This document shows, in pieces, positions 9,201 to 59,915 of a DNA stretch of 64,000 bases (its first letter is position 1; each line of letters begins with the position of its first letter). Below the pieces are notes generated by a model that saw nothing but the letters and a program-made list of their open reading frames with translations, did no database searches and had not been told where the DNA came from. The stretch is from assembly GCA_947568835.1 (NCBI GenBank), contig OX387608.1, forward strand, positions 7,602,001 through 7,666,000. The letters are read 5' to 3'. Origin of the DNA: Protonemura montana (Eukaryota; Arthropoda; Insecta; Plecoptera; Nemouridae). The position numbers and the translations under genes were made by a program.

Positions 9201-12200
9201 ATAAAAACGCTCTCATCTCAGAGGCACGGTGTAACCAACTGCCAAACTTCGTTACAATCTTTCTTCCTTCTAAGTTCCAACCATTGCAGCCTAATTCAGC
9301 CTCCAACGCCTCTCCTTGCCTCTTTCCAGACGAGCACACCAACACAGTACTTCTGGTACCGCACCACGTTGATGGTCAGCGAAGACATCAACACGCCCGA
9401 CATGTTCAACTGGAAGATCGCGATCGCGCTGGTCGTCGCTTGGATCCTCGTTTACATGTGCATGATCAAGGGGATCGCGTCGTCGGGCAAGGTCGTCTAT
9501 GTAACGGCGACCTTCCCCTATCTGGTGCTGATCATATTCTTCTTTCGCGGCGTCACTTTGCGCGGGATGGGCGACGGCGTGCGCCATCTGTTCGTGCCAA
9601 AGGTGAACTTTGCAGGGATATGGACAATTTTTAGTATGTTCAATGTTTTACCGTCGGTATTATCGATGTTCTTAATAATTATGCGTTGCGGTAATCCTGT
9701 AGGCGTTTACAAAATGTAAATGCAGATACAAACGCGTTTTGAAAAAAAAAGAGGTGTAGATTTATTTGAAATTTGAATGACCCCATAGCGTCGAGTTTCC
9801 ATAAATAGAGTTTCAGTAGTTTCGAATTGACTACAAGTATAATTTTTCGACAAAAATCACTGCGCTTACAACTAAGAATGTATAAGTGACTTTATAAAGA
9901 CTCGTTTTAATGAAAACGTTGTGTATTTTCTATAACATAGAAACACTTTACATGGTAAGAATGTGTAGAACTTGTCGTGAAAGTCCGAAGTGTCAATTGT
10001 TAGCTTTCTCTGCTCAGCATGGAGTCAATTTCGACCAAAACGACCGATTAAACGCATGTCGATTAAACCCGCTTTTAAAAGAGAAATTCAAATTAATATA
10101 AATCATCGTCAATGAGCAAAATAACTCCTGACCATAAAGCCACTTGCCATTAATGCTTTGTCCTCTGTTGCCCAATAACCCAGCATACAATGTCGCTTTT
10201 CTCTGAGACTGTCTAACGCCTCTTTGATCCTTCTAGTGGAGTATCCTGATGGATCCTGTCGTTTGGCTGGAGGCGGGAACGCAGATCTTCTTCTCGCTCG
10301 GACTGGCATTCGGTGGGTTGATCGCCTTCTCCTCGTACAACCCTGTCAACAACAACTGCTACCGCGACGCCATCACCGTCTCGCTCACCAACTGCTTTAC
10401 CTCCATGTTCGCCGCCATCGTCGTCTTCTCTATCATAGGCTTCAAGGTACAGATATAACTCTCGGACTTTGATCTCACAATTGAATTACTTCTGTCGGGT
10501 AACTATCACATATTTGCAGTGTCTTTTGGGTTTTCTGGCATTTCCACTAGGGAGCTTAAACCAGCAAGCGGATGATGGAAAAGAAGCTAGACTGGAAAAA
10601 TGAGCAGTATTTTTCGGTTGCACATTTTCCATATGACTCTGAAAATATGACTCTGTATTCGTGTATTTCCACTACAGGCAACGATGATCCATGAGCGATG
10701 CCTGGAGGACCGAAACTCCACGCTCATGTCATTGTTTGGCAAGCCCGTGTCATTGAGCACTCTGCCACCAGAGGGCAGCGTCATTCACTGGGGTGGCATC
10801 AACGGTAGTTTGCAGCCGACGTATATGCCACCGCTGCCGGAGTGCGACCTTCAGAAGGAGCTGGACAACGTAAGTATTAGGTTCTTGATGTTTGCTCTCT
10901 TAACGGACGTTGTGGAGACTTGGTTTTTTAGACTTCTTTGTTAGGTGTGGAGGATGCATTATGACGGGTCTTAACGCCTGACGTGGATTTTTTTATTGAA
11001 AGTATCAGCGAAAACAGAATCGCCAGTTAAATATAAATATATTTTTTGCAGTATTTTTATTTACACGTAAAGACATGGTTAAAACGTACTATCGAGGTTT
11101 TCAAGGTTCTCTACGAATTGGCCACATTTAGAGTTCCCGCTCCTCCTCCCCAACACCAAGTTGAAGATGCAGCGAGTTTTAAGTGGAAATAAAAAGAGTT
11201 TTTATCAGCTAAGTTCCAATCTGTCAGATGTTTTACTGACATCTATAAAAAAACAGGTGACTTAAGAGAAATCCTGGCAAAGGAAATGTTTAAATAATAT
11301 TTCAATTTTATTTATGTGTAATGTTAAGTCATCTGACACGTTGAAAATTGCAGACATCTGTCCATTTAAATAGAAAAACTCCGTTTATTAAACCTGATGC
11401 AATTTTCTTTACACAAAAATCCTTTTGCAGTCTGCCTCGGGCACCGGCCTGGCCTTCATCATCTTCACCGAAGCCATCAACCAATTCCCTGGCGCCCAAT
11501 TCTGGTCGGTGCTCTTCTTTCTGATGCTCTTCACCCTTGGCATCGACTCTCAGTTTGGTACCCTCGAAGGCGTGGTCACCTCCATCGTCGACCTCAAACT
11601 CTTCCCGAACCTTCGCAAGGAGATCCTGACTGGCGTAATCTGCCTTTCACTTTGCGTCTTCTCGATGGCATTCGCCCACGGTGCTGGCAGCTACGTCTTC
11701 GTTCTCTTCGACAACTTCAGCGGCAACTTTCCGTTGCTCATCATCGCGTTCTTTGAGTGCATAGGCGTCTCATATGTGTACGGCCTCAAACGGTGAGCAG
11801 TCTAGGTGTAATCCCCAACGTTGTCCATGACCCTCGTAACCTCCATTTTCAACCCTGCATACATGTGTGATTGTAAAATAAGAAAACCATCAAAAAATGT
11901 TTAAAAAATTAAAAAATTAAATAACTATTACGGAGTTTCCAAAACGTCGAACGTGTTGCTTAACTTCTGTGATCTTCCGAGAACCGGTGTTTCCAACAGG
12001 CCAAACCACTCGGTCTCTTACTCTGCTCTTTCTCGTCTAGGTTCGCGGACGACATCGAGTTGATGACCGGCAAGCGTCCAGGACTGTACTGGCTCATCTG
12101 CTGGAAGTATCTGTCACCGTTGGCCATGCTGGCCATCCTCGTGGCAAGCTTTGTGCAGATCGCGACGGAGGGCAGCGGCTACCAAGCCTGGGTAGCCTCC

Positions 12201-13133
12201 AAGGGGGACACGGTCAGGCACGAATGGCCCACGTGGGCACTTGTCCTGATCGCAGTGCTCATTCTCATGTCGGTGCTCTGGATACCGGTTGTCGCTATTT
12301 GCAGGTATACACTCTTTCAGCTTGGCTCTTGTTTTTTTTTAATTATTTGGTGCAAAATATTTGCTTGTTAGATGTGGGGTCTATTAATTACATAGTTAAA
12401 AAATATTACTTAATTGAAAATTGCATTAAAAAGTTCAATTGGCTCAGCAAAAGTTTTGTTTTCCAAGTCTAGGTTATAAATTTGTACTCATATTCTAGTC
12501 TACTTTTTCTCTATCTACCTTTTTTTTATGTTCCGCCACAGGTTCCGCTCTATTTTTTCAATATAAATAACAAGAAAATATAGCCGGCGCAAGACGGTTT
12601 GAGAAAAGGATGTGTGGTTTCAAATAAATATTCAGAATATCACCTGGTATAAGATACTATTGTATTTTCTAAGGATAGTATGAGTTGAGGTTGGGTGAGG
12701 GTGTATCCTGGAATGTGTGTTCAGTGATGGCCAATAGGTTGGTCATAACTTCATGCTCATCGCCACCAACTGACTTTTGTTATTTCGAAAAGTTGGAAAG
12801 GTTATGGTACTGCTGGATCACTCAGCAGTATTTCCAAGGTTAAAATGTACTTAAGAAATTCTGTGACTTTTGTTTAGCCGCTGGAGAGATTTTTATCAGC
12901 CACTGTCTTAACGCCAATTCACCTTTTTCCGCAGAGCATTCGGGATCCTTATAATCGACGACAACGAAAAGGCGTGGTTCCCGGCAACAGACCTGCAGGA
13001 TTTCCACGGGATCGTGCCCCACCAACCGACACCCGCCGAGAAGTTTCTCTTTTGCATCCACGAGGACGGCACCGAGGGCATGTGTTGCCCCACGACTGAC
13101 CGCGAATATGACGATGACCCGGACGTGCCCTAA
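255..13133 (+). CDS. SLC6 family Na+-coupled amino-acid transporter, SLC6A15/SLC6A17-like
   Basis: Nine exons join in frame: 255-443, 7006-7195, 7757-8064, 9330-9602, 10237-10446, 10678-10869, 11431-11792, 12041-12304 and 12935-13133. All have GT/AG borders with matching phases, and the stop is TAA. The product is 728 aa, the usual length of SLC6A15/SLC6A17. These are 12-helix symporters that move neutral amino acids with Na+ across the plasma or vesicle membrane. Visible landmarks: TM1 with the Na+/substrate motif [10 protein letters not shown] (residues 110-119), then NGGGAFLIPY; TM6 [16 protein letters not shown] (340-355); TM8 [16 protein letters not shown] (455-470); and the [17 protein letters not shown] loop after residue 575. 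Extracellular loop 2 carries an NGT glycosylation site. The start at 255 has a purine at -3 and G at +4. A possible acceptor (TCTACAG, ends 197) lies upstream, so a further 5' UTR exon may exist outside the window. The exact SLC6 subtype and substrate are inferred. Confidence 0.93.
522..866 (+). repeat. 5S-derived SINE, 5'-truncated diverged copy
   Basis: It contains the body motifs CTTGCCTTGCTTCTTAACC, CTCGACAGCAT, GGAGGAATCCTG and GGACGTTAAGACGG, and a 3' tail ending in (ATCA)n. The 5S head is missing. It lies in intron 1 of the transporter. Confidence 0.8.
6388..6536 (+). repeat. 5S-derived SINE heads, two tandem fragments
   Basis: One head (GGTTCTCGAGATATTGCCG through GTATTGGACGGGTGACC) is followed directly by a second 5' end (CCGAACGGTTTAGTGTGTTG, then GGTTCTCGTTGGATCAC). 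No SINE body follows. Either one copy inserted into another or both are truncated. Confidence 0.75.
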
Positions 13134-17799: not shown

Positions 17800-18601
17800 C
17801 TTCAAGGAATTTTCGAAGTATAGCGGAATAGGTACGTAAATTAGCTGTAATTTTGTTTTGGTCAAAACCAGGATGTTTTGATTTTCCTTAATATCTAATA
17901 CACCGCTGGATAGCAAATACGCAACCATAAACTCAACACTTGTAAAGAACAGCAAGAAAGATATACCCGAAATAAACCTACCCAATCACACGGCTTCTTG
18001 GTCCGGACCAAAAACCATATAACCCGCCATCTTTGATATGTGAAAGCAAGTTTCACCAACAGCTCGCACCAAAATGTATATTTTACAAGGTTGTTGCACT
18101 TGTCTTGCCGGCTTCTTCCCGCGCTTCTGTCTGTCATAGAGCAGCAAATTTTGGCGCAACGGTTCCGATCAAAGGGTCTTTGGATCAAAGGTTCCGATCG
18201 AAGATAGCTACGATTGAATTTGCTTCCGAGTACAGTTTGAGATGGTTAGATTATAATTACATTAGATAACAGGATTTGAACATTTGAAGGTAAGCCCGCT
18301 CACAGTGACATTCGCAGTTCCTTTTTGGTTGTGATTTTATTTGACACAGTTGATTAATTTCCGCAACTGCCAGACCACTTGCCATGTGCCTTTGTATTTC
18401 TAAGGTTTTCAACTCGAAATCGTGGTGCCAGCAACAATAATAAACGAAATACAATATAAGACCTGAGCTTTCAAGCTTTCATTTCTCAAGCTCTTAAATG
18501 ATGTATGTCCCAGATTAGAGTATGGACAAAATATTAAGATGTATTAAGGTACCATCCCTTTCCGTAGCGCTAACTCACTGAACCTTTCTTTTAGGAAGAA
18601 A

Positions 18602-21600
18602 ATGTTCGAATACGACGATAGCGGGAGTGAAGGTGACTTTAGTCAAACTTTCAAAGAAGTGGACGCTTCCTTCGTCGTCAGTGATGCTCGAAAGTCCTTT
18701 GGCCGAACCTTCGACCCTCGAGCAATCCTCGGCGAATCAGATGAAAGTGACTACTCAAACTCTGATGTTGAAAAATCAATCAGTCCTGTTGTCCCTGTTA
18801 GAGCAAAAAATGTTCGTAGGCTGATTTCTTCGGACGATTCGTCGGAAACGGACATACCGAGAGAAGAACAAATCCAGGAAATATCGTCTGACAGTGAAGC
18901 GGCGTCCAGCCACACTGAAAAGATAATAGAGCTCAGTTCCGAAGACGACGACAATTTTGTGGTGTCTCCAGGATTATCTGTGGATTCACGAATACCAAAA
19001 TTGCCTGCCATACAACCAAATAAGCAGCCAGAAGTTAGCGCTGGACCCATTCAGAACCCAGGAGTTAGTGCTGGATCCACTCAGCAGCCAAGAGTTAGAA
19101 ATGGACCCTTTCAGCAGCCAGGAGTTAGTAATGGACCCACTCAGCGCTCAAGAAGTGATGGACCCTTTCAGCAGCCAGGAGTAAGTGCTGGATCCACTCA
19201 GCAGCCAGGAGTTAGTAATGGACCATCTCAGCGCTCAAGAAGTGATGGACCTTTTCAGCAGCCAGGAGTAAGTGATGGACCCACTCAGCAGCCAGGAGTT
19301 AGTAATGGACCATCTCAGCGCTCAAGAAGTGATGGACCCTTTCAGCAGCCAGGAGTAAGTGATGGACCCACTCAGCAGCCAGGAGTTAGTAATGGACCAT
19401 CTCAGCGCTCAAGAAGTGATGGACCCTTTCAGCAGCCAGGAGTTAGTGATGGACCCTCTCAGCGCCCAAGAGTTAGTCCTGGAACCATTCAAAAGCCGGG
19501 AGTTGCTACAGGCAGCTTCGAAGAGGCTCTTGCAGCAAACAAAGTCCAGGTGCTTGTAGCAAAGATTTCCGAGAAAAAGATGCAGTACTCGCAGATTCAG
19601 GTGTGTGGCAGTCATTTTGCTGGATGTAGTGGGTGAATGTCAGTGCGGTTGTGGTTTTAATGGCGATTGTTACAGGCTGCCCTTAAAGGGACCGAGGTCT
19701 CGCAGCTTTACGATGGAGGACAAAAGCTTCTGAACCGCGCGGCAATACTTTCAGACGAGATACTTGCGCTGGAAACAGCTGTGGCGACATTAGCGTCTAT
19801 AGACCCAGCTCCTTCGGAAGCCCAAGGAGTGCCCGTTGCGCGGACAGTTGTTCCCAAGGCGGTCGTTGCGGCACCTCAATGGAACGCCATACGCAACACA
19901 ACAGATATACAGCACGGGTTCGGCGCCAAAGGTACCCCACCTTTCAAGTGCTAATCCTGTGCCAATAGAAGGCGTCGCGTCTTGGGACATTCGGTGACTT
20001 TGTTGCTTGCTTGCAGCTCTGGAATCGTACACGGTGGAGCGCGACTCTGCGTTGGCGACACTGGCAAGCCTGCATCGTGCGCTGAAGACACGACCCGGAA
20101 AAGAAGTGGCCAAAGCACCACGGGCCCTGCGTTCAGACACAACGCTGATGCCACACCAGCTGAGGGCCTTGGCCTGGCTAGCTTGGCGAGAGGCTGGGGC
20201 AAAACCCTGCGGAGGAATACTCGGTAAACGTGAATAAAACTTGCACAGTCAATTACAGGCTTTAGCTAAGCATGAGCATGGTAAACCGTAAGACTTGAAA
20301 GCTTCCATCATGCTTGGCACGGGGCTCTTAAGGCTTTTCCTGGGTGCAGACAACATGTGTGACAGCCACCGATTCAATAATAATAAATTATTGTCAGGAT
20401 GATCAAATACATGATATTCAAACAGTCGTTATAAATAAATATGTACATATGTCACTGTCTTTTAACCTCTGTTTTTTTATGCTGTGATAAAATATACCTA
20501 CTAGGTAATTTTTTAGAGTTCTTTATATTTTTTGTGATTTTTGTATTTTATATTTTTTGAAAGCGCATTAAAACGTAATATTCTGCCACAGATTCCGCTA
20601 CGAACTGTTCCTTGTTTGTAAATGAATGTTTTATGTGGTAGACATCTATGTCAATCATATCATCTAGAAAACTTTTACAACGTAGACGAGTTTTTTATGT
20701 TAAATGCAACTCAAACCTGACAAAGTACATTCTATTAACCGACAATGTTTACGTCTGTATATATGTATTTCACTAACACATCTAAAAAAAATATGTAATA
20801 ATGCGTTGGTCTTGTGTTCCAGCTGACGACATGGGGCTGGGAAAGACGCTTGCGATGATTGCGCTGGTAATGTCAGACTTGGAGTCGCGGGACTCTGATA
20901 GTGAAGACGATGACTGCTATACCACGACCAAAAGTCACAGCAAGAAGAGTGGTGAGCTCAGTCTGTTAAGATATCCTACGTATTGTTATTGATCTCATTC
21001 CCTGGCAAGGAACATTGACTCATATGAAATGTACACTTACTGACTTGTAAAACGGTCCTGTACACGATAAGGTCATAGGAGAAGGGTAATAATAATAATT
21101 GTTATTAGTTTATAACACAATCAGCCAGTTGGTATGAGAATTGTCATGGTACACATAATACACATGTAGTACGTGGCTTGAATCACGCGCCTGTAATTCA
21201 TTCTGATAAGCCAGTTTCCCAATCGGTAGCTGCCTCACTTATGCAGATTTCTATCTCAAACCACAGGTCTGAATTTCAAAATTTTGGGGATAGAAGCAAA
21301 ACTCATGAGTGAGTCGTCTCTCCTTGAAACTCAGTTAGCTAAGGTACTGCTTTTCTAATATTGAAAAGAAAACAAGTTTTCTAACTCTGCTTCAGCTTCT
21401 GTTATCTTCAAATCAAAGCAGTCGTTCGACTCTAGACTTGACCTTTTTGATGCTGACTAGTTCGTGCAAGTTGGCAATAACAAGAAGGGAAAATAAGTGA
21501 ATTACTGATGTCGATTTCTTTGGTCTGACACATTTTGATGGCCAAAACAGCACCTCTGGTATCACGAGGAAATTAAATATATCATTTAAATATATCATTC

Positions 21601-24600
21601 AATAATTAAATACATTTATACAATTGTTCTTTTTATCATTCAAAAGTGATATAAGATCCGTTGAATTTTTTAGTGGAAATAAAACACGAGGTCTTTCTTT
21701 AAGGCAGAGGTGTAGGAAGCCATATCAATAATATTGCCTTGACAACTTAACTGGTTTCATGTTCTCTTCAAAGACTTCTTGTAGCTAATGATGCTACTTG
21801 ATGCTTTGATCAAGTGCTTCCATCACATGCTAGATTATGTGTTATAGTCAAAGGGGGCACTCTTGTCATCTGCCCGGCTAGCTTGGTTGGCCAATGGGAG
21901 GGCGAAGTACGTCGCCGCGTGAAGTCAGACAAAGCAACCGTTGAAGTCCACCATGGATCCAATCGAGAGAAGCGAGGCTACCGGTACGCTCTCAAACTAA
22001 AAACTCTACAGAGCTTGCAGTAATGACACATTTGAAGACTTTCAAACGTTAATATCTTCTCATTTCTTGCAGTTCTTTTAAAGTACCAAATGGTAAACAT
22101 GTTATATTTGCCAAATTTCTTGCAAATGTCTTCCAAATTGCCTCTTACCGCATGTTCTTTAAATAATTGCCATTCTCTGCTATTTATTGCGACAATTCAT
22201 CTGCACTTACCGCGATTTTCATGTCCCGTAATCTCAATTTGTCTGTCAGACTCGCTCGGCGCACCCTGGTGGTGTCCACGTACGCCATAGTGCGCACAGA
22301 GCACGCTTCGCATGGCGCCCTGCACCAGGTGCACTGGCGACGGATCATCTTGGACGAGGCACACGTCGTGCGCAACCATAAGAGCAAGACCGCCGAGGCC
22401 GTATTTTCTCTCATGGGAAGGTTCCGCTGGTGTCTCACGGGCACCCCGGTACACAACAAAGAGCTCGACCTATTTGCCCTCATCAAATTCATCGGTTGCA
22501 CGCCATTCGACGACGTAAACGTGAGTGGTTCGAACTCTAGGAACCTAATGACTTCTTCTTTTTTGTTCTACAATGATTCGTAAAGCAGCTCATGTGAAAT
22601 CCTCAAACAAAGTCGATGTGTAGCTGCCGACATTAAGGGTCTACCCACAATTGACATAGCAATCAACACTTGCACAAGCGCAAGGGTTTTAAAACTTGGT
22701 TGTCACTTGGGACTGCACACAGTTGACACAACTGTTAAAATATTCCAACTACTTGTGTGCTGTGCTTATGTCAACCATTCACAGAGAATTACTTTAACAA
22801 ACATGGGGGATGGTCTAGGTGTACTGACAACGTTTTTGACTGCTCCATTTTTAGATAATTTTTTTTTTATATATGTGTCTATTTAGAGATGGCCAAAAAC
22901 CATTGGTACCTGACGACTACTTTATGTAATTAGTCAGCGAGTAAAATTCAACGGTTTAATTGTACTGTAAAAATATCATTAAATGTGTAGGTTATGGCTG
23001 GGGAGAAAACGTTACTGTCATGCTTTCTGCGGAGCAAACTAGCCGACTTTACAATTAAATAATTGCTACTCAAAATATCGATGTATGTATGTCAATCGTT
23101 GAGGTTGGCATTAATAAAGGTTAAGTTAGTGTAAACCAGTCTCAAACGTGAGTAATCTGCGAGAATTTCATCACACCCGAAATTACCGTGACTCCACCAA
23201 TGAACTTTCTTCAGTTCCCTTTTTTTTTTGTCAGTAAAGTAGTCATTTGGCAGCCATCTTCGGCATTGACAGGTTAGCATAAGCGTTCGGAAAATACGGT
23301 AATATACTTAAATATCATCTCAAATGGACTCTGCTGAAAACACATTTCGGCTGAGCCAAAACCTTCTTTGTGTAGCGGCAGATTCAAAGCTTGAGGTTAA
23401 TTTTGCTGTGCAAGAGCTTACGTTTATTGCTGTTTCAACTGTGCTTTGCGTCATTAAGTGTTAGCCTGCGTTGTTTTGTGATTGGTCCCTTTGTGGTCAG
23501 GTGTGGAAACGCTGGATAGACAACAAAGGCAACAATGGGGCGGAACGGCTCAACCTATTGCTGGGCTGCTTGTTGCTTCGTCGGACCAAAGCTGAACTCC
23601 AGGGGAACGAAGAACTGCAGGGGCTCAGCTCCAAGGAACTACACACCTGTCACGTCGCGTTGACAGAGCAAGAGACAGCCGTCTACGAGAAAATTCTCGC
23701 TTTCTCAAAGTAATGTTGCACTCTGCTCAACCAACCAGTACCGTCCAATTTATTTATTTATTTATTTTGTTTGGCTACTGACAAGTTTCATAGTAATTGT
23801 ATGGCCTTATAGATTAGGTTTACCTATGGAAGTGTAAACAGTAATATACAATACAATAATAATAATATGATAAATAATTTATAATAATATTTATGTCTCC
23901 AAGAATGTTTCTGGATAGAGCAACTGGATCATTTTGCAGTAAAAATCTACTTTGATTGTTAATTGAAAAGCACAGCCAAAAACATCGTTATGGTTTTTAG
24001 ACTCGTGTCTGCTTTTTCTAACCTTAGCACTTATTTTGGAAAAAAAATCAAAACTGGGTTTTGAATGCTAAGGAAAAAACAAATAGTATTCCTGGAGTTA
24101 CTATTACTAGAGCGGTTGCTTAATATAAACTAATAAATATAAATATAAACTATTATATAACTTAGCATTCCAAAGCATTCGCGACCATTTAAATCTCAAC
24201 CAGCCATCCCTCTAAACACATATAAAGACAAATTTTTCTTTTTCAAGTTTTCCCATTTATTTTCCAAAACATAAAAAGACGCCGACGATTTGAGGCCGTC
24301 TCAATTTTTTTGGACCGATGTCGCTACCCGTATCTGGGCTAGCCGTGTGGTAACGTTACGATTGCCTACAGATCGATGTTCGCCAAGTTTCTCCAGCAAC
24401 GCCACGAGCGAGAGGCCATAAAAAACGGCGACACAAACTACAAGCCTCTCGATTTTAAGAACCGTGAGTAGCCACACGCTAGTCAACACTGTGCTGGGTC
24501 GACTAAAATCATCGTTGTGGTTCTAATCTCCGTTTTTGTCGGCATTCAGTTCAAGGCCAGGTGTTCGAGCCTGGAACAAAGCTGGGCAAGATGGCTGATA

Positions 24601-27600
24601 AGTACGCCAGCATGTCGGATATCAAATCTGACGTCATCCTCGTGCTGCTTCTGCGGTTGCGGCAGACATGCGTACATGCTACGCTCGTGTCCTCGGTAAG
24701 ATTGCTTGGTTATTTTATTATATTTTATGATGCACCGTTTTGACAACGGGCCCTGTGGAACTGGTCTAATGCCGTCGGTAAATGAGCGGATTCTCAATGC
24801 CGGCATGTAGTCTACTCCTGTTGAATAGCACCAAGGTGACCACCGGCTTAACGTCCCTTCTGAAGGACGGTTCCATGCTGTCGAGATGTTGATAAGCAAG
24901 GCGAATGGAGTTGCTGTAATAACTTTGATACCTTCTATCTCTTTCCCAAACAGAACTGGTTATGTATTTGATGGTCACCCATCCAATACCTGACTCAGCC
25001 CATTGTTGCTCAACTTGAGTAATCTTATGAGAATTGGTGTTTCCAACACGCCAAACCGTTCGGTTCCTCGGTATGACAAAGTGTACTTTAGAATATATTG
25101 GATATATTGGACACTCAACTTACAGTACAATTGGCATAAACGGACGAGCCATTTTGGCACAAAGGAGTACTTGGAATGTAACATATGTAAAACCTTTGGC
25201 CTAACTATCGGTAAAATTGGTAAAATAGAGTGATAGAGCCCAGTGTCTTCTTATGTTCATCTTATGGGAGAAAACAATTGCCATGGCAACATAGCAGGAA
25301 AGGCTACACATTTCAGGAGCCGGAAATTTAAACTGGTTTCGGAGCTGTGATCTGGTTTGCCTTTTCGGAGAGAAGTTTGTAAAAAAGTGTTGAAACTGAC
25401 AGTCATGTTTACTTTGGTCACTGGTTGCTCTGGTCTCAAGTTGTGCAATTTTATTGGCTGGACTTCAGATGCTGGACATGCCCACGCTGGAGCCGGCCAA
25501 TGAGGAGGAGGACGACGAACTGGCAGGCGCGCTTGGCAAGCTCAGGCTCCGAGAGGCAGAAAACTCTGAAGAGGACGAGGAGTGTGTCTCGGAAGACAGC
25601 TTCTGGACCCCAGAGAACCCGGTTTTCGATGGAGATAGCATTAGTTCTAAGGTTAGTCTTATCTCCATCCTGGGCCTCGTTGAAATATATCCAGGGAACA
25701 GCCCGTGGCTCAGAATGACTTGATTTTGAGATTGTAACACAGAGAATAGTGTTGAATACGTTGTGTAAAAATTTGTAGCGAATCCTCATTATCTAAATGT
25801 TTTTAGTTTTTGGATTTGACTAAGAATATTGAATGTTTCTGTGTACTTATTTTTTTTTATGCATAGCGTTCGTCTGCTATGCCTGTAATCTCTTACGATT
25901 CAATTTGGTCAATGCTCAAGTGCTGAAAAACATGCATGCTGCCACTGCCAGATTGAAATAAGTGTACTTCGTTACATGGAAACATGGAACTTAAAATTTA
26001 TAGTTTCTACATTTTTAATTTGAAATATCTTTGTGGATCTTCTCCATGTCAACAAAGGGGTCTTTTAGAATCCTGCTTGCAACATTATTACATAAGCCAG
26101 GGCATATACACATATTGTTTCTTACCTAGACTCTTAACTCGTCTCAAACTATTTTTTGTTTGCAGTCTCATTCCATATTTCTTTGTTCAATCTTTGTTTA
26201 TTTCTTTTATAATTTTTTGTTTATTTTCTACCAGTTTGATCCTCTTTATTTAATATCTTTGTTTTCACTTGGTCTATCCATCTTTCCCTGGACTTTTTCT
26301 CTCTTTTCAGATTTAATTTCAAGCATTTTGTTCGCTTACCTAATTTCTTTCATTATCATCACCTTTCCATACAACTTCAATCTTAGTTCACCAATACATT
26401 AACCTACATAAATGTGAAATATCATGTAAACTGCAAATGCCTCCAATGGGCAAAGTATTCTATTATTATTTTTCCTAACAAATAAAAAGTTCCGTCATTC
26501 CTTTCTTAATAATAAGTCATTTGCTATTTGCTCTATATTGCGTTAACCGTTTGTTGTGTCGGCAGATGCAAGCTGTCCTGGATATATTGCAGTCGCCATC
26601 CGTTGCCAATGGCGACGATAAAGCTGTCGTTGTCTCGCAGTGGGTTTCCATGCTTAACTTGCTTGAAAAGGCGTTAAAACAGAAACGGGTGCACTGTGTT
26701 AAACTATGTGGAGCGACGCAGGTCCGCGATCGCAAGAAAATGGTCGACGACTTTAACAACGCAAAGTCAGATGTCAAGGTAGGCTTTCCCCCTAGGCTTA
26801 GAGTGTCAAACTAGGCTCGACCCCTGAGATATTGCGTGTCAAGGCAGGCTCCTACCCCTAGAACCGAACCGGTTGGAAACACCGGTTCTCGTTAGATCAC
26901 CGAAGTGAAGCAACACTGCGCTGAGGCAGGTACTGGATGGGTGACCATCATACACATGACCAATTCTGTTTGGGTAAGAGGTTAGAGGGATGAATGTTAG
27001 TTCAGCAACTTCACTTGCCTTGCTTAACAACCTCTTGACAGCATGGATTTGTGGAGGAATCCTGTCGTTTGCGTTGTACCGTCCTTCGGAAGGGACGTTA
27101 AGCCGGTGGTCCCCTTGGTGCTCTTCGACAGGAGTAGGCTACGTGCCGGCACCAGGTTTCCCCTCCTCCCTTCTAGACTAGGTTAGGTTCATCATCATCC
27201 CCACCATCATCAACTCGTTCACCGACGCCATTAGACCAGTGCCGCATGGCCAGATGTCAAAACAGTGCGTCGTTAAACACCACATATAATAATAATAATC
27301 CTCCCCCTAGACATGGCCTGTCAAACTAGGCTCCTAACGATGGCTCGTGATCTCCAGGTGATGCTGCTGTCGCTAACCGCAGGGGGCGTCGGCCTTAATC
27401 TGGTCGGTGCGAACCACTTACTGCTCTGTGACCTCCACTGGAATCCGCAGCTGGAGGCACAGGCGTGTGATCGTATCTTCCGTGTGGGTCAGACTAAGCC
27501 TGTACACATTTACAAGTGAGTGCAACTTAGATAGAGACTGACCAAGCCAGTGCACGGCCCTGCGTAACGGGGAGAGAGAGAGACTGTCCACCATGCTGGG

Positions 27601-30430: not shown

Positions 30431-30620
30431 ACACACATTGCAAGATGTCAGCCAAGTCACGAGGTCTGTCAGCTGACTGAATCGATTCATAATCAGTAAC
30501 CTGACAGCTACTCAGCTGTGCAGTTGTTTTGACTGTGGCAAGGACGCCGCGACGCCTGGCCGACGTCTTCTCAGATAATGACGCAATCAACCTAGAAGTT
30601 TCCACTGAATTCGCAGCACT

Positions 30621-33600
30621 ATGCGCACACTTAGCTATAGTTTTTACACGCTTTTCGCCGCAATCAGTATTCTAGTCTGTGTTTTGTTTGTAGAGAAAGT
30701 GAGTCCAGATGGCAATGTTACAGAAGAAATCGTCGCGACGCCTAAAGACGCCTCCAAAGACCCCATCGGCGACATCGTCGGCCCCGATGACCAAGCGGGG
30801 GCGGAGAGCAAGAAGGATCCACAGACCTGGGTCTCCAAAACCCCGCCTGACATAAAATCGGCAAATACGAGCTCGTCGTCTACTACAACAGTTGCGACTC
30901 CATCTGTCGTTAATGCAACAAATGCTACGATCTCAAGCACGCTGGCTGCTGAGCCGATTTTGCCTGACAAGGGATCTGCAGAGGAAGAGCATAACAGTTC
31001 GCTGTCGATATTCTTCGTGCTTGCGATTCTTGCCTTGGCGATATTACTGATTCACCTGATGCTCCAGACCAACTTTCAGTATCTTCCTGAAAGTGTAGTT
31101 ATCGTTTTCTTGGGCGCATTGATTGGTGGCATCATTCACCTCATGTCCAACCAAAACATAGCAAACTGGCGCAAAGAAGAAGCTTTCTCTCCAACAGCTT
31201 TCTTTCTCGTCCTCCTGCCACCAATCATCTTTGAGTCTGGATACAATCTGCACAAGGGCAACTTCTTCCAGAACATCGGGACAATCCTAGTATTTGCAAT
31301 TTTTGGCACATTGATCTCAGCGCTGGTCATTGGAGGTGGAGTCTACTTGCTTGGGCTGGCATCGGTGGCGTACGAGCTTAGCTTTGCGGAAAGCTTTGCA
31401 TTCGGATCATTGATTTCTGCCGTCGATCCGGTTGCCACAGTTGCAATATTCCATGCGCTTGATGTGGACCCTGTACTAAACATGCTTGTGTTTGGTAAGT
31501 ATCTACAACGTTGGTCTAGTAACTGCTTTTCTGACTGTCTAATCTAAAGAAATATTTTGCTTGTAATAGAAAGTTACCAATGTTTTTTCATGTAGTTTTT
31601 CTGTGAACAATTTCAATAACTATGTAGGTAGGATAGGTAGGTCATTAGGTACAGCCCAGGGCTTAACTTTCCAATTTTACTTCTTCTAGTACTAACCATA
31701 CCAGCAGAGGGCCTCTAAAGCGTTTTAAATTTATCTCCAATACAAAATACAAATATAAATACAAGGAGAAGCTACTTGTTGCTGCTCAACTATACTTTGT
31801 TCAGCGAGAGAGCATACTTTTCCGGCAGAGGTGCCACCGGTCATCTTGTAGTCACATACTGGCCAACTGTCATTTAAAAAAATACTGCAAATTATCTTTG
31901 TTGCTATCTGCCACTTTAATTTTGCCCGTAAGCTTTTTTTGTTCCAAGATGATTTGTTTTTCAAGCTACTGTAAAAAGGTTTATAGTGTTTTTATTTAGT
32001 GAAATGATACCTTTTCGTAAATTAATATTACGTAGCTGTATTATGACAACTGACATACAGTAAAATTCAGTTATCTCCTTACATTGATCACCTTGGGCAG
32101 TATAGGTAATTCAGAGTTATAAATCCATAGTGTTGCTCTAGCTACTTTGTCCCAATAGCAAGAAAACATTGCAATATTGAGAAACACGGTAAGCTTTTTG
32201 AATTGGCCCGATTGTATCCAGGCGAAAGCATCCTGAACGACGCTGTAGCCATCGTGCTGACCACGACGATCCTCGAGTCCAACAGTCCTGACATGTCATC
32301 CTCGGAGGCCGTCGTGGCAGGCATCAGCCGCTTTTGTCTCATGTTCTTCGCGTCGGCGGGCATTGGTGTTGCGTTCGCTCTCGCATCTGCACTGCTTTTG
32401 AAGCATGTCGACTTGCGCAAGAACCCGTCGCTTGAGTTTGGTGAGTCACTTGGCTTGATTTACTTTAGAAATATAATGAAAATGTTGATAGTCAATATGA
32501 GCAATTATGTTTGACATTACTTAAGCCAATAGTTGACAGTCAGTTGGAAATGTAGACTGATAACTGGCAAACTATGAAGGTTGCACAGATAGGTACAATA
32601 ATTAAACTCTCTTTGAAGTCTTTGCTATAACTGGTTGCTTGCAGCTCTTTTCAATATCTTTAGCTGGTCGATTGTCAGTATTTTGCTTGCAGCTTTTAGA
32701 ATATAAGGCCCATACAATTGCTATCTATTTGTCAGTAGCCAATAAATAAATAAAATAAATCAAGTCTGGTATGTGTTCTATTGTTTTTTTTTCTGGTTTT
32801 AAATTGTACTTTAAAAAGTTTTCATCAAAAAAATAAGTACATCCAGGCACTAGAAATGTACCTATGTTTCTACGCTTGCTGCATTATTAACAGGTTTAAA
32901 TTTTTTGATTTCCTTCTCCAGGCATGATGCTGGTGTTCACGTACCTTCCGTATGCACTAGCGGAAGGCATCCATCTATCCGGAATCATGGCCATCCTGTT
33001 TTGCGGCATCGTCATGTCGCACTACACCCACTTCAACCTGTCTACAGTGACACAGATCACCATGCAGCAGACCATGCGTTCTCTGGCTTTCATTGCCGAG
33101 ACCTGCGTCTTTGCCTATCTGGGCCTAGCGTTATTCAGGTAGAGTTAAAACAATGGTTAAATGCTTTCTAGTTAGTAACTGCAGTATGCTTCTAAACCGG
33201 CCAACTCTGCTTTGTAGCTGTCAACTTTTATAATTTTTTAAAGTTAACTATCCTATTTTAATGCTTGCTTTTGGGACATCATACTTGGCCACCAACGAAC
33301 GTAATCAACTCCCTCCATGATGTCCAATCACTTCTTGGCAGACAACGGTGTCAATTAGCTGCTAAAAGTTTGTGAAATTTTATTTCAATTGCAAATACAA
33401 TTGCCATGCACATTTTATTATTTGCCTATTTGTTCTTAACCTCCCTAAACTTGCTGGCAAAATGGGACATTGAACTCTGATCTCTATCTGTTGCAGATGT
33501 TGCTCTAACCAATTGAGTTAAAAGAAAAACTATTTGAAATGGGTTTTTAATGCTAAGTAAAGGACAACTAAAATTGATTGAGTTACTGATTATATTACAA

Positions 33601-36222
33601 TTATTATTACAATAATATTATTACAATTATTACAATTGAGTTACTTGGACATGTCTTGAAATCTGCTCATCTGATCTCCTGGATTCTTGTTGCTAGACAG
33701 CTGTGAGGTCAGCAATTTTAAACAGTAGTTAAAATAACTGTGTTTGGTGTAGTTTTCGGCACCGCGTGGAGCCTGCTCTTGTGGTGTGGTCCATCGTTCT
33801 CTGCCTGCTGGGCCGAGCTTGCAACATCTTCCCCTTGGCCGTGGCGTGCAACAAATTCCGCGAACATCCGATCACTAGCCGCATGATGTTCATCATGTGG
33901 TTCAGCGGACTGCGCGGTGCCATCGCGTACGCCCTCTCTTTGCACCTGCAGTTCAGCGATGAGACTCGGTACGTGGCTGTTGCGTTATTCGAGCGCTTTT
34001 TATTGAGCTAGCGAGCGTAAGAAAAGCTTTTATTCGCCTCTTTCATTTTTTATTTTCTTTAAACATCCTCTAATCCTGCAACTTCTTTGCTCGAATATTA
34101 TAGCATTAATTTTTTACTGTCATGGCCAGAATTACAATGTCTGAAATAAATAATTTAACATGAAATTTGAAGTATCCAATTGGGTGTAACTAAGGAGATG
34201 TTAATGTTTAACTAAGGAATGTTATATGGCTTATTTCTATTTATCTAGACATTGCAATTTCGGTCCTAAGTAGAAGAAAATTGTTTTGGCTATCAACAGA
34301 CTTCGCAAAAATTTGAGTATGGTAAGGACAGTAAACCTTTTAATTAAGTGACCTAATAATAGTACAATCAAGCCTTGAATGATATAAATCTAAACTGTAT
34401 CATTTCACCGTATTTTTAAGTCACAAACTACAAGCGAAAATGACCAAAATATAGCCTTGTAACAACATGCACTCAAAGGAGCTAATGTAAGCATAAAGGC
34501 TATGTCGGTGGTTCTAATCCTGAAAATACTATCGGATGTCGATCGTTGTCAAATCGTTGAAACAACAATTCAACGCTGTCGATTTTAGCCACGTGATCGT
34601 GACGACGACGCTGATCATCGTGCTCTTCACGACCCTGGTGTTCGGTGGGTCAACCAAGCCGCTGATGAAATTCCTGCAGGCCGAGAAGAAGCACAGTCGC
34701 CGACGCAGACGAGACAAGGACATCTCGCTGAGCAAGACCAGGGAGTGGGTCAGTACATGCAAAAGGACATAACTGCACCTGGCTTCGGCAAAAGGGCCGC
34801 TGGCAACAGCTGTGATAAAGCAGGAAAATGGCTACCTGATGGCTATCTTTAGTTTCAAGGTTTTTTCAAAGACTTCCCTTCATAGTATTGCTGTCATGAT
34901 GAGAACAATGTGGATTTGCTGCCATCCAAACACATACTGGCGTTATGAAAACAGATGCAAATTGCAAATGCTTGCAATGCACAAAGTATTTTTTTCTTAT
35001 TGCTAACTCTAATGACCAGTACTAATGACTAATAACACGAAATTGGTGCCCAAACGGAGACTCGAATCCTGATCTTCACCTGTCGCGGGTGTTACTCTAA
35101 CGTAATTATGCTTAGTCGAAACTATGGTCCCTATGTATTTGATGGATTTATAAACGTTGGTGTGAAGCGTATCAAAAGGCTGTGGAAATGATTATGGGGA
35201 CAAATGTTGAGAGGAAAAAAGTTACGCCATGTTAGATGATTACTGGGTTGGTAGGTTAACCTTTTTTCTCCGTTTAGTTCCGTAACTTCTTCACCATAAT
35301 CATGGATTTATTAAAAGTGTAGACTGTTTTGCAAGTCCAGATGTGCAAACATGTTGAAAACAAACAAAAAAAACATTACATGTTTTCTAATTAAGAAAAC
35401 CGTGAAGTGCCGTGCAACTGTATTTTACCTTACTCTGGTTTTTCTTCGTTTCAGGGCCAAGCTATAGACTCGGAGCATGTTTCCGAATACACCGAGGAAG
35501 AAATGGAGGTGAACTTTGTGCAGTCTCGGATGCGAGGTTTCGCTCGTTGTGACCTCAAGTACTTTATCCCGTTCTTCACGCGACGGTTTACGCAGCAGGT
35601 AGGTGAACGAACCGTGATTACCCCCCAATGTGTTTTAACTTCGGTAAAATGTTATCCCTACAAAGTAAAAGTCAGTTTCTAGGATCAGTTATGACTTTCT
35701 CTTGTTTATGAATGAATAAGATGGAACGGCAGAGTGGTTCAGAATCACTATTAGATTGTAAGTGAACAGTTGTGATGAAATTTTGGTCCAGAGGACTAAA
35801 AGTCCTTTGGTCAAGAGGTGGGAAAGTTTATATCAAAGATAAAATAACCACTCGCAAGCGATGAAAGAGATATAACGTTTTTACTTCTGCGTTAAGTTCT
35901 TGTTTGTTTTTTTGTTCACGTTTGTTTGCCTTTTCTATTTTGTTAGTTTATAATGCATCTGAATTTGTAGCACATCTTTTTCAAGTGCAGGCCAAGTATT
36001 CCTGACCATATAATCTTGTATATTACTTTGGTTTATGAAGTTAGGCTAGATTCTAAATCAGATTTTATTTACTAGTTATGGCCATCTTATGTTCTGCAGG
36101 AGCTGAAAGATTGTAAGACCCAGATGACTGACCTTACCAACCAGTGGTATCAGGCCATTCGCATTTCGCCGACGCAGTCCGAGGAAGAGACCACAAGCAC
36201 TACGCGGTCACTAGTCCACTGA
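30621..36222 (+). CDS. Sodium/hydrogen exchanger 8-like (SLC9A8/NHE8)
   Basis: Seven exons join in frame: 30621-31494, 32222-32440, 32922-33138, 33753-33968, 34589-34748, 35455-35598 and 36100-36222 (TGA), giving 650 aa. NHE8 exchanges luminal Na+/K+ for H+ in Golgi and endosome membranes (apical membrane in some epithelia). An N-terminal hydrophobic segment (about 8-24) is followed by a Ser/Thr-rich luminal stretch with NVT, NTS, NAT and NSS sequons (30-127). Exchanger landmarks: FFLVLLPPIIFESGYNL (194-210, amiloride-region motif), SAVDPVATVAIF (266-277), ESILNDAVAIVLT with the transport ND pair (297-298), and MMFIMWFSGLRGAI. The cytosolic tail has SLSKTREW, SEHVSEYTEEEMEV, FFTRRFTQQ and QMTDLTNQWYQAIR, which mark the NHE8 branch rather than NHE1-5 or NHE6/7/9. 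It is about 70 aa longer than human NHE8, mostly from the N-terminal stretch. Confidence 0.95.
33455..33532 (-). repeat. Degenerate tRNA-like SINE head
   Basis: On the minus strand AACTCAATTGGTTAGAGC resembles a pol III A box, followed about 20 nt on by AGTTCAATGTCC, a damaged B box. No paired acceptor stem is visible. It lies in the NHE8 intron between exons 3 and 4. Confidence 0.5.
33528..33600 (+). repeat. Family C MITE-like fragment
   Basis: ACTATTTGAAATGGGTTTTT and AATGCTAAGTAAAGGACAAC match one arm of the foldback at 55937-56036. An ATTACAATTATT microsatellite follows. Confidence 0.6.
34957..35122 (-). repeat. tRNA-derived SINE, diverged copy
   Basis: Reading the minus strand: an A-box-like segment near 35120, AGTAACACCCGCGACAGGTG, GGATTCGAGTCTC (B box), GTTTGGGCACC, and a tail ending TTGCAAGCATTTGCAATTTG. 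It lies in the NHE8 intron before exon 6. Confidence 0.75.
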
Positions 36223-49503: not shown

Positions 49504-51179
49504 AAACACCGAAAAAAATCAAAGTGGAGCTCCCAAGAAAATATGTATCAAGGTCATATTTATAAGTAAATTACGAGTTCCGAGCAAACATTTGATATTA
49601 TTTGAAGCTTTGTCAGGCCTCAGGAATTCTAAGGCAAGAATATTAGGGACTCAACTTTGATTGTTCGCTTGTACCTACCACTGCGCGGATTTATTTTGAG
49701 AGCCTTGAGAGAAACTGTTTGGGGCTCTAGCCAGGGTCTGTAAATCTGCAGAGTTGCATTATTTAAATTCAAATAAGTACCCAGTATAAAGGCACTCGAT
49801 TATTTCTCAAGTCTTATTTATTTTTCGAAAAAAAAAATGTAAAATTAAAAAGGGTACGTAGGTGTTTTTAATGCGAACTGTTTTGTCCTGTACGGGACCA
49901 GCCCGTGACCGTGGTCAAGTACCCTTCTGTCCTCTCCTGGCTAAGCCACTGAATATTTACATACTGCTGCTGAAATATTGTTTTATTTTATTCTAAAAAA
50001 CAGTGTTACTTCTACAAAATCTTTTTCACTTCACATAAACCTAGATTCTTTTCAAAATAGATTTATCAAAATGGTTGATCCTCTTTATGCAATCCTATCT
50101 CACTGGAAGTTTCCTGCTCAGGCAAGGAAACGCCTACGCACCATATCTATGCTATCAGATCGATGTGCAGAGAAAAGATCTTACCTACAAGTTTTTGCAA
50201 CTTTTTTGCTCGGAAATAATCTTTTTCTCAGTAACGAGGTCGTTGCACCATCTCGAAGAGCGGCCTAGCAACGCACCGAGTCTTTAACGAGCCTTCGTTA
50301 TTTTCAACCCTACAGCAAGTCAAAGGGAATTCATCGCATCGAATTCACTGTATGAAAGAAACACGTCAAGTAAAAATTGTATAACATTTATTGGCGAATT
50401 TCCTCGAATTTCACAGTAACTAGGGGTTAAAAATAATACTATGATATGTAACGAGTTTATTCAAGGGTCTACTCTATCAAAATAAGTCTATCAATATCTA
50501 ATTGTCAGTGTTAATGACCTTTATATAATCTAGAATGGTCTTCTAAGCTTTCGCTTCTATTATTAGCGTCTATGACGGCTCAGGTGGTTCATATGGCACA
50601 ATTATTTTACCTACTTACTTCAGTTTGTCATATGATTTACACTGACGAGGACGTATCGTTATGGTTTTCTCTCATTTCGCTTTATACATTAAATTGAGAT
50701 CAGTTTTAGTTTCTCACAAAAGCAGGGAATCATAATTGTATTTTTTTTTTACACATTAAAAATGTTTAAAATGCTGAATTTTTATGCCTCACCTAAAAGC
50801 AATTTTAAACATGATATAGATATTTTTTTAGACAGTTCTACACAGTTTTGATTGATACGATATTATTTATGTATAGAAGAGTTAGAATTGACAACATTGC
50901 AGTATTGGAGGCTAATTTGTAACTACATTTATTGAACATTGTAAACACCTGAAGTTACCGTCTGTAAAAATCGGCAGATTTTGGGTGAAATGCTGTAAAT
51001 GTGATTATTTTTGTTCAGTTTCACGATAATATTGTCATAAAATAACTTACAGGATGCAAAACGATTGGTAGTATTATCCTTTTAAGACATCTCAGGTATA
51101 TAATATATAAAAGTAAAATCCGTCATTGGCTAGACATCATTTTATATGAAAAATGTTTTTAAAAACTATCAGGTATCGT
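49504..51179. other. Gene-free spacer, probably including the kinase 3' UTR
   Basis: No coding region is visible. The right part lies downstream of the minus-strand kinase. TTTATT motifs (AATAAA on the minus strand) at 50928-50933 and 50388-50393 could be its poly(A) signals, but I cannot choose. Confidence 0.5.
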
Positions 51180-51452
51180 TCAAATAAACACAAAATCGTC
51201 TTCGTCTGCCAGAATTTCGTCCTGATCATGACAATTAATACCAGACTCCAGCCACTCGGCTACCTTCGTCGCTTTCCTTTCCTGACCCCTCCCCGCCTCC
51301 ACCCTTGCCTGGATCGTGTCTATGTGGTACCCACTCAACGTAGCACTCTCAACCTCCTCTACCAACGTAGACAAACGCTCGCGCATCCTCATCGACGACC
51401 GATTGCTAACAACCGCCTCTTCTATCCGATCCTCCCAACCCCCGGCTTCTTC
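51180..51452 (-). CDS. Possible stop-codon readthrough extension of the SBK1/Meng-Po-like kinase
   Basis: Directly after the kinase TGA (51455-51453) the same frame stays open for 90 codons and ends in another TGA (51182-51180). The peptide begins EEAGGWEDRIEEAVV, has a probable amphipathic helix near MRERLSTLVEEVESA, and ends in the acidic DQDEILADEDDFVFI. Its base composition resembles the kinase body rather than the AT-rich spacer that follows. Regulated readthrough is well documented in arthropods. The alternative is an ordinary 3' UTR that happens to be open. No conserved domain is recognised. Confidence 0.4.
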   Translation of the reverse strand, partial: EEAGGWEDRIEEAVVSNRSSMRMRERLSTLVEEVESATLSGYHIDTIQARVEAGRGQERKATKVAEWLESGINCHDQDEILADEDDFVFI

Positions 51453-52598
51453 TCATAAAACGTCCACAGCCGGCGCCTGTTGAACATCGGTCGACAACAC
51501 CCACTCCCAAATCCTCTTCGTCATCACCTTCTGGTCGATTGTCGTCTCCAAACCATAGCTGCTCATCGTCTTCTTCAGTCTCAGTTTGCCGTCATCGACG
51601 GCGCGATCACCGTCCTCATTCTGATGCAGATACATGTTGACAGAGTCCTTTTTCCACCACTCCGTCGTCGACGCCGCGACGCCGCTTCCCGACGCCTTAC
51701 CGGCGACGAGCCACGCGTCTTTCAAGTACTTGTTGATCTCCGTCACTTTAGCGCGACCCTCCGGCTTGTGCTCGAAGAGGCGTTTGAAGAGGCGCAACGC
51801 TCGCGGCGTGAACCGCTTGAACTGCGCCGGTATCTTGGTGGTACGTCGCCGTTGCCAGCGAAAGAAGGCCGAGTATGCGGGGTCGGCGATCGAGTCGGCC
51901 GCCTGCCATGGAGGGTGTCCAGTCAGACAGACGAAGATGACAACGCCGAGCTGCCACACGTCTGCAGCTAGATGGCAGTGGTAGCGCTCGTTCCATACTA
52001 CCTCGCACACTTCAGGAGAAAGGAACTGGTGCCACGTACATCTGACCTTAGAAACGAGGCTACCGTGACGTCTGGTAGAACCAAAGTCGCAGAGTTTAAC
52101 CTTAGACATGTCGGGAGCAAAAACCAGCACGTTCTCGAGCTTGAGGTCGCGGTGAACGAGCTCTTTGGAGTGCAGGAATTCGAGGGCAAACGCCAACTGC
52201 TTGGCTATCAGCTTGCAAGATTCTTCGGGCAGCCCACCGGCCTTGACGTTGCCGGCAAGGTCGCCAAGCGGCGCGTACTCCTCGGCGAAGACAAAGTAGT
52301 CGTCGGCGCGAAACGCGACGTCGTAGACGGACAAGACGTTGGGGTGGGCGCTGAGATGGTAGCTGTAGTGAAACTCGCGGAAGAAGTCGCGAGCGACTGT
52401 CATCTCGGTGTGGACAGACTTGAGGACTACTGTGGTGTTGGTGCGGCGGTGGGTGGCGAGCAGGACCTTGGCGAAGCAGCCCTCGCCAAGGGTGCGGATC
52501 ACGGCATAGTCCTTGGGGAGGTTGACACGTTCGAGAGTGAACTCCTGGACGCGGTGGATGCGACTCTCTTTGTCGCTACGTGGCGTGGTCTCACGCAT
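51453..52598 (-). CDS. Serine/threonine kinase, SBK1 / Meng-Po-like
   Basis: A single coding exon gives 381 aa from the ATG at 52598. Kinase motifs: glycine loop LGEGCFAKV (37-45), VVLK with the ATP-binding Lys (60), EEYAPLGDLAGNV hinge region, catalytic loop HRDLKLEN (149-156), DFG (171-173), and a SPEV region in place of the usual APE. The C-terminal MSSYGLETTIDQ...TKRIWEWV block is, from memory, shared with arthropod homologues. SBK1 family kinases are cytosolic. Drosophila Meng-Po was reported to stabilise CrebB in memory formation. A longer frame reaches an ATG at 52679, but TTACAG at 52612-52607 is a good acceptor. I therefore start at MRETTPRSDKESR, which fits remembered homologues. 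An upstream 5' UTR exon at about 55373-55504 is likely. Confidence 0.92.
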   Translation of the reverse strand: MRETTPRSDKESRIHRVQEFTLERVNLPKDYAVIRTLGEGCFAKVLLATHRRTNTTVVLKSVHTEMTVARDFFREFHYSYHLSAHPNVLSVYDVAFRADDYFVFAEEYAPLGDLAGNVKAGGLPEESCKLIAKQLAFALEFLHSKELVHRDLKLENVLVFAPDMSKVKLCDFGSTRRHGSLVSKVRCTWHQFLSPEVCEVVWNERYHCHLAADVWQLGVVIFVCLTGHPPWQAADSIADPAYSAFFRWQRRRTTKIPAQFKRFTPRALRLFKRLFEHKPEGRAKVTEINKYLKDAWLVAGKASGSGVAASTTEWWKKDSVNMYLHQNEDGDRAVDDGKLRLKKTMSSYGLETTIDQKVMTKRIWEWVLSTDVQQAPAVDVL

Positions 52599-52788
52599 GA
52601 CGGCGTCTGTAACATCAGGAGGAATTTGGGCAATTAGAGATGATGGACACGGAGGCAAAGTAATCATGAGACACGACAAGAAATTCTCGTGTTACAAGAA
52701 ACTTGGTAAAGATCATCGATCTCCTTCAGTGTGTTGCTTGTAACTGTGTATTACTACTAAATATTAATAAATTATTAGTATGATAATC

Positions 52789-53040
52789 AAGGGGACCATT
52801 AGGCTTAACATTCCTTTGGAAGGACGGTACAGCGCGAACAACAAGATTCCTTCATACACCCATGGCTCCAAGAAGTTAATAAGCAATGCTAATGAAGTCG
52901 CTGTACTATCTTTCATCCCTCTAACCTCTCTCCCTAATAAAACAGGTCATGAGCATTTTGGTCACCCATCCAATACCCAATCCAGCTCAGTGTTGCTTAG
53001 CGTTGGTGATATCACGAGAACCGGTGTTCTCAAAACATAA
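52789..53040 (-). repeat. 5S-derived SINE, 3'-truncated
   Basis: Reverse orientation, from AAGGGGACCATTAGGCTTAA to ACGAGAACCGGTGTTCTCAA. The tail half (TAGGTTAGGTTCATC onward) is missing. Confidence 0.88.
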
Positions 53041-53523: not shown

Positions 53524-53912
53524 ATTGTGGTTTAACGACGCACTGTTTTGACAACTGACCCTGCGGCACTGGTCTAATGGCGTCGGTGAATGAGCGAATG
53601 ATTAAATAGATGATGATGAAACTAACCTAGCCTAGAAGGGAGGAGCCTACTCCTGTCGAAGAGCACCATGGGGACCACCGGCTTAACATCCCTTCCGAAG
53701 GACGGTACGACGCGAACAACAGAATTCCTCCACAAATCCATGCTGTCGATAGGTTGACAAGCAAGGCGAATGAGTTGCTGTACTAACTTTCATCCCTCCA
53801 ATCTCTCTCCCGAACAGAACTGGTCATGTGTATAATGGTCACCCATCCAATACCTGACTCAACGCAGTGTTTCTTACGAGAACCGGTGTTTCCAACATGC
53901 CAAACCGTTCGG
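53524..53912 (-). repeat. 5S-derived SINE, nearly complete
   Basis: Reverse orientation, from TTATTGTGGTTTAACGACGC to the AACATGCCAAACCGTTCGG head. There is a small deletion around the GGAGGGGAAACC segment and a damaged box A (CAGTGTTTCTTACGAG). Confidence 0.92.
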
Positions 53913-58711: not shown

Positions 58712-59139
58712 GTGGTGGTCAATGACGCACTGTTTTAACATCTGGCCATGCGGCACTGGTCTAATGGCGTCGGTGAATGAGTGGATGAGGATGATGATGA
58801 TGATGAACGCAATCTAGCCTAGAAGGGAGGAGGGGAAACCCGGTGCCGGCACGTAGTCTACTGCTGCAAAGAGCACCAAGGGGACCACCGGCTTAACATC
58901 CCTTCGCAATGACGGTACAAATCGAACAGCAGGATTTCTCCACATATCCGTGCTGTCGAGAGGTTGATAAGCAAGGCGAGTGAAGTTGCCGTGCTAACTT
59001 TCATCCCTCCAACCTCTTACCCGAATAGAACTGGTTATGTGTTTGATGGTCACCCGTCCAATACCTGACTCAGCGCAGTGTTGCTTAACTTCGGTGATCT
59101 TACGAGAACAGGTGTTTTCAATATACCAAACCATTCGGT
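58712..59139 (-). repeat. 5S-derived SINE, full length
   Basis: From GTGGTGGTCAATGACGCACT through (GATGAT)n, GGAGGGGAAACCCGGTGCCG and CCACCGGCTTAACATCCCTT to CAGTGTTGCTTAACTTCGGT and ACCAAACCATTCGG. Confidence 0.95.
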
Positions 59140-59481: not shown

Positions 59482-59915
59482 AACGGTTTGGCGTTTTGGA
59501 AATGCTGGTTCTTGTGTGAACACCGAAGTTAAGCAACACTGCGCTGGGTTAGGTATTGGATGGGTGACCATCGTACACATGACCAATTCTGTTCGGGAGA
59601 GAGGTTGGAGGGATGCAATTTTATACAGCAACTGCATTAGCCTTGCTTATAAATCTTTCGACACCATGATTTGTGGAGGAGTCCTACAGTTTGAGTTGTT
59701 CTGTCCTTCGAAAGAGACGTTAAGCCGGCGGTCCCCTTGATGCTCTTTAACAGGAATACACGACGTGCTGGTGGGATTTTCTCTCATCCCTTTTAGACTA
59801 GGTTACGTTCATCATCATCTTTATCATTATCCACTCATTCACAGAAACAATCAGAGCAGAGTCACAGATCCCGTTTTTGGAACAGTGCGTCGTTAAATCC
59901 CACTACTCAATCAAC
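59482..59915 (+). repeat. 5S-derived SINE, full length, diverged 3' half
   Basis: An intact 5S-like core (CACCGAAGTTAAGCAACACT, GTATTGGATGGGTGACC) is followed by the body with GAGACGTTAAGCCGGCGGTC and a tail AATCCCACTACTCAATCAACC. Confidence 0.94.

Follow-up and report, generated by a model that had tools for sequence, protein, structure and literature searches.

A protein kinase reading frame of the plecopteran insect Protonemura montana ends at a TGA codon, and the same frame then stays open until a second TGA. The question raised by this locus is whether the codons between the two stops are translated by readthrough of the first one, which would give the kinase a second C-terminus, or whether they have another explanation. 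We analysed the locus within a stretch of 64,000 nucleotides (GenBank contig OX387608.1, positions 7,602,001 to 7,666,000), referred to here as the window, and all coordinates are positions of the window. The original prediction of a TGA followed by 90 open codons up to a second TGA was borne out with exact coordinates, and the features of the locus are as follows.

51453..52667, minus strand: ORF of a meng-po/SBK1-type protein kinase, 404 codons plus TGA counted from the first Met (52667)
51700, minus strand: CCG|GTAAGG, the sole GT[AG]AG donor-like site in the C-terminal part (scan of the sense strand, 51453-52000), located in a variable linker
51456..51464, minus strand: C-terminal D-V-L, an example of the [DE]-x-hydrophobic end counted in relatives
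51453..51455, minus strand: first stop, TGA then G, in the same alignment column as the usual C-terminal stop of short-tailed relatives
51183..51452, minus strand: 90-codon in-frame open extension, a candidate readthrough region with positional periodicity and mixed coding scores
51194..51247, minus strand: interval of the fitted GC change point, from GC-richer to AT-rich
51180..51182, minus strand: second in-frame stop, TGA, read from the sequence

The kinase and its usual C-terminal end

From stop to stop, the kinase ORF covers 52691..51453 (-), or 412 codons, and its second Met, at 52598, lines up with the start of its relatives (MRG...). The ORF has a Pfam Pkinase match (1.9e-43) with intact catalytic motifs (VVLK, HRDLKLEN, and DFG), and K83, D174, and D194 fall in invariant columns of an alignment of 22 sequences. 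A protein search with the kinase, in which 7,992 candidates were scored, gave 1,056 matches, of which the best 120 were listed. Timema, Gryllus, Anabrus, and Nilaparvata proteins are among the best matches, several of them labelled meng-po or SBK1, and the closest relative among the best 120 of the 1,056 is a Timema protein with 66% identity and 76% of the query covered. The organism-named relatives among these 120 are insects or decapod crustaceans, and in a midpoint-rooted tree of 42 rows the kinase groups with insects, two decapods being the exception, at a position that the tree does not resolve. The kinase domain and a C-terminal YGLETT...WEW block are common to the window kinase and its insect relatives; a search of solved structures gave general kinases only, such as ULK2, CHK2, and Aurora, among the best 60 matches. 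Judging from its sequence, the window gene encodes an intact insect kinase of the meng-po/SBK1 type; the Pkinase match and the meng-po-labelled best matches uphold the original assignment as SBK1/Meng-Po-like, and a pseudogene was rejected because the kinase motifs are intact. The nearest characterised counterparts of the window kinase are human SBK1 and Drosophila meng-po (CG11221), the latter reported to be needed for long-term memory (PMC5825208). Beside the kinase lie diverged direct repeats at 52802-52999 and 53680-53876.

The kinase reading frame ends ...APAVDVL-TGA, with the stop at 51455-51453 (-). Tails were counted from a conserved Trp, which 119 of the best 120 relatives keep aligned to W389 of the window kinase; P0007 has no such Trp and was left out. 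In the 119 listed relatives, 10 to 244 residues follow this Trp, and some have longer or different tails (23 residues in Nasonia, 34 in Chrysoperla, and 68 in Aedes). The window kinase has 15 residues between W389 and the TGA, and exactly 15 are also found in 39 of the 119. Where the tail has 13-18 residues, as in 52 relatives, 47 of them end in [D/E]-x-[ILVMFY]; of all 119 counted, 59 do so (alignment A2). Because relatives share both the tail length of 15 and the same kind of C-terminal motif, the first TGA most probably represents the ancestral stop of the kinase family, and the extension would therefore lie outside the protein that the family usually makes. In short-tailed meng-po relatives, the free [D/E]-x-hydrophobic C-terminus may itself be functional.

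The open frame beyond the first TGA

The extension reads EEAGGWEDRIEEAVV...DEDDFVFI, 90 codons between the two TGAs, and includes the tryptic stretch LSTLVEEVESATLSGYHIDTIQAR; it is charged and ends DDFVFI, with VFI as a hydrophobic end. AlphaFold2 modelled the extension alone as all helix (mean pLDDT 54, no alignment used), which is not informative. The frame stayed open in 338 of 40,000 dinucleotide shuffles, and the in-frame opening after the ancestral stop is thus genuine and above chance by shuffling. In 24.5% of 5,000 shuffles, at least one of the six frames was open across the extension. The caveat that other frames also have few stops applies to one antisense frame, which is open across the extension (102 codons, 51150-51458 (+)), but not to the remaining two sense frames, which have 6 and 4 stops. 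The GC content is 0.53 in the extension versus 0.25 in the next 100 bases, and the best change point is at 51240; in log-likelihood, placing the change at the first stop is worse by about 28 units and placing it at the second by about 6. The change point is thus near the second stop, as expected from the claim that the extension ends where the sequence turns AT-rich.

The coding evidence for the extension pulls both ways: the predicted coding-like composition is supported by a positional score and by codon-position information, but the kinase-codon score is ordinary and an independently trained score is intermediate. With the kinase-trained positional score, the extension gave +8.7 in frame 0, whereas the other two sense frames scored -30.1 and -35.5 and the highest of the antisense frames +0.8; four equally sized kinase blocks, which are the score's own training set, ranged from +4.2 to +38.1. 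This score was matched by 8 of 30,000 shuffles and, per codon, by none of the 114 ORFs of at least 70 codons outside gene stretches and by 7 of the 188 outside the kinase locus. The extension has a codon-position information of 0.064 bits, a value that 30 of 40,000 shuffles attained, as did 4 of the 114 ORFs outside gene stretches. The positional signal is significant in codons 21-90 (1 of 5,000 shuffles) and not in codons 1-20 or 1-30 taken alone (976 and 669 of 5,000 shuffles). Among 8,250 frames of 270-base windows slid over the sequence beyond the kinase locus, which includes exons, 0.76% matched the positional score, whether open or not; the share was 3.9% among the 1,446 frames with a GC content of at least 0.48.

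The kinase-codon score was not matched by any of the 338 open shuffles, the best of which came close (-0.282 vs -0.280 for the extension). The same score ranks the extension 108th among the 198 window ORFs of at least 70 codons, and 51 of the 114 outside gene stretches match it; third-position C has a frequency of 0.12 in the extension versus 0.42 in the kinase. An independent classifier took its training data from exons of the window's symporter, SNF2, and exchanger genes, with the kinase left out. It gave the extension -1.7, intermediate between coding stretches of 270 bases (-1.0 to 9.2, own gene left out) and noncoding ones (mean -5.8, SD 2.0), and this value was matched by 40 of 2,278 noncoding windows. 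One antisense frame with three stops inside beats the extension at -0.2. The charged tail is probably a hard case for a classifier trained mostly on membrane-protein genes.

Outside the kinase locus there were 123,722 placements of 270 bases; 2,237 of these were open, and 300 of the open ones matched the positional score, forming 10 clusters. In seven of the clusters there are Pfam domains that belong to other genes (exons of the symporter, of SNF2, and of the Na/H exchanger). Another cluster, at 34532-34831 (-), lies antisense to an ORF whose exchanger match is weak (E 0.053), and the last two, at 25400-25720 (+) and 33733-34008 (+), are without assignment. The neighbouring genes themselves comprise sodium:neurotransmitter symporter exons at 7714-12368 (+), with Pfam SNF in 7714-8163, 9138-9716, 10237-10455, 11398-11793, and 11973-12368, an exon with an SNF2-related ATPase domain at 22167-22580 (+) (6.1e-25), and sodium/hydrogen exchanger exons at 30609-32511 (+) with Pfam Na_H_Exchanger, the weak match at 34524-34769 (+) (E 0.053) being below the cut-off. 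The window also contains a 362-codon open frame at 18548-19633 (+) with an extensin-like match under the Pfam cut-off, and four 5S-rRNA-like matches above the Rfam gathering score (24945-25063 (-), 26855-26976 (+), 59019-59139 (-), and 59482-59594 (+)), which are possibly 5S-derived repeats.

Two protein searches with the extension, with 7 and 121 candidates, gave no homologue at E 10 or better, and Pfam yielded nothing either when E values as high as 10 were allowed. The protein searches covered lengths of roughly 50-157 and 272-866 residues. They are weak negatives, because shared five-residue words were required and because, to our knowledge, readthrough regions are seldom annotated in protein collections. 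A tail duplicated within the window was rejected, as no clear second copy was found and the best non-self matches had E values of 1.1 (protein) and 0.048 (DNA). Of two scans of viral contigs for relatives' DNA, one gave none and the other a single unrelated locus of 23% identity; a scan of prokaryote contigs gave 30 loci of 24-34% identity, all bacterial by record title, and none was used. Splicing into the extension was rejected for want of a convincing acceptor, since pyrimidines make up no more than 60% of the 15 bases upstream of any of the 32 AG sites that 51180-51500 contains on the sense strand.

Insect readthrough candidates prefer TGA as the stop and C as the following base (PMC5100048). 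The base after the first TGA of the kinase is G, so that the typical leaky context, TGA then C, is not found here. The RNA after the first stop has no unusual fold compared with shuffles (z -0.03 and +0.46); in PMC5100048, only 9-10% of candidates have a stable structure predicted in the RNA up to 100 bases from the stop. A search with Rfam up to E 5 found no SECIS in 49900-51460, where the only three matches were far below their gathering scores.

Readthrough and the competing explanations

The explanations were weighed by judgement, and their probabilities were not computed. Stop-codon readthrough of the meng-po kinase is the leading explanation, as a candidate to which we give rather less than an even chance. 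Of the original case for readthrough, the gene identity, the open extension, the GC boundary, and part of the coding-like make-up have held, whereas the ordinary codon score, the intermediate score of the independent classifier, the TGA-G context, the lack of a stimulatory fold, and the failure of the protein searches to find a homologue of the extension tell against it. Readthrough gains support from its base rate in insects, since the 95% lower bounds for functional readthrough are 614 stops (5%) in Anopheles gambiae and 960 (6%) in Drosophila melanogaster (PMC5100048). Over half of functional readthrough regions are suggested in the same source to be shorter than 10 codons, beside which a 90-codon extension is long. 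If readthrough occurs, a near-cognate tRNA would let some ribosomes read past the TGA, yielding a kinase of 495 residues (472 counted from the second Met) whose charged and possibly helical tail ends in DDFVFI. Such a product would no longer have the free [D/E]-x-hydrophobic C-terminus common to short-tailed relatives, and it could therefore differ from the normal form in partners, location, or stability.

It is a serious possibility, to which we give a good share of the remaining probability, that the kinase simply ends at the TGA and that a G-rich 3' UTR is open and periodic-looking by chance. The stop at the family end, the TGA-G context, and the lack of a stimulatory fold all suit an ordinary UTR, and the failure of the protein searches to find homologues of the extension points the same way, as does the paucity of signal in the first 20-30 codons. 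An open frame somewhere among the six is common in shuffles, the kinase-codon score is matched by many nongenic ORFs, and the independently trained score is reached by some noncoding windows. However, the frame in question is seldom open in shuffles, and none of the open ones matches the codon score even if the best is close. A chance origin also has to account for a positional score that few shuffles and no nongenic ORFs match, and for a GC drop that lies near the second stop rather than the first.

The stretch might instead be, or have been, coding without readthrough, as an alternative 3' exon, an exon belonging to a different gene, or a short downstream ORF starting from the Met at extension codon 21, which we consider unlikely. 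Such an origin would fit the concentration of positional signal in codons 21-90, codon usage unlike that of the kinase, and the one donor-like site at 51700. The acceptor scan argues against it, however, as do the identity of the extension frame with the kinase frame and the failure to find a homologue within the protein lengths searched. A separate downstream ORF is further disfavoured because animal ribosomes rarely reinitiate after an ORF of 404 codons. A base error, a segregating nonsense allele, or a recent re-gain of the stop after the lineage had acquired a longer tail would explain the coding make-up past the stop without recoding, and tail length does vary widely among the listed relatives. 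But the stop lies exactly where 39 of the 119 end, with the same type of C-terminal motif, and an independent error at this very codon is improbable. We regard this group of explanations as highly improbable and rejected a fresh nonsense mutation or base error on this ground; the concern of the original prediction about a base error in the TGA is unlikely to apply, since the TGA is at the family's normal end and short-tailed relatives stop at the same codon. Decoding of UGA as selenocysteine, for which the in-frame TGA codon speaks, was already disfavoured and is scarcely credible, given that no SECIS family was found in the region searched and that relatives end at the same codon.

A possible C-terminal switch in a memory kinase

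The [D/E]-x-hydrophobic end common to short-tailed relatives resembles a class III PDZ ligand. Readthrough might switch a memory kinase between two C-termini: the normal stop would expose this end, and readthrough would bury it behind a 90-residue charged tail ending VFI. This idea draws on the conservation count and on inference, and we think it quite unlikely to be correct in this form.

Like the readthrough genes described from Drosophila and Anopheles (PMC5100048) and the ribosome-profiled extensions (PMC3840789), the kinase has an in-frame ORF after a TGA in an insect host, and like the candidates in PMC5100048 its extension has an intermediate single-species coding score. Unlike the published insect candidates, the extension has TGA-G rather than the commoner C, has no predicted RNA structure, is long, and is known from the sequence of a single species. 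A literature search found no report of readthrough of CG11221, and the gene is absent from the main texts of PMC5100048 and PMC3840789. A second, extended C-terminus of the kind proposed here is also seen in AQP4x, the mammalian aquaporin-4 readthrough isoform, which is reported as demonstrated, although that protein is mammalian and unrelated to the kinase (PMC10701521). The locus adds a new candidate to a phenomenon that is well known in insects.

If the extension is translated, termination efficiency would set the balance between two C-terminal forms of a kinase on which long-term memory depends in the fly, and the conserved C-terminal tripeptide offers a concrete, testable explanation of why it could matter which C-terminus is made. 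It would also add a long TGA-G readthrough tail to a phenomenon catalogued mainly in flies and mosquitoes.
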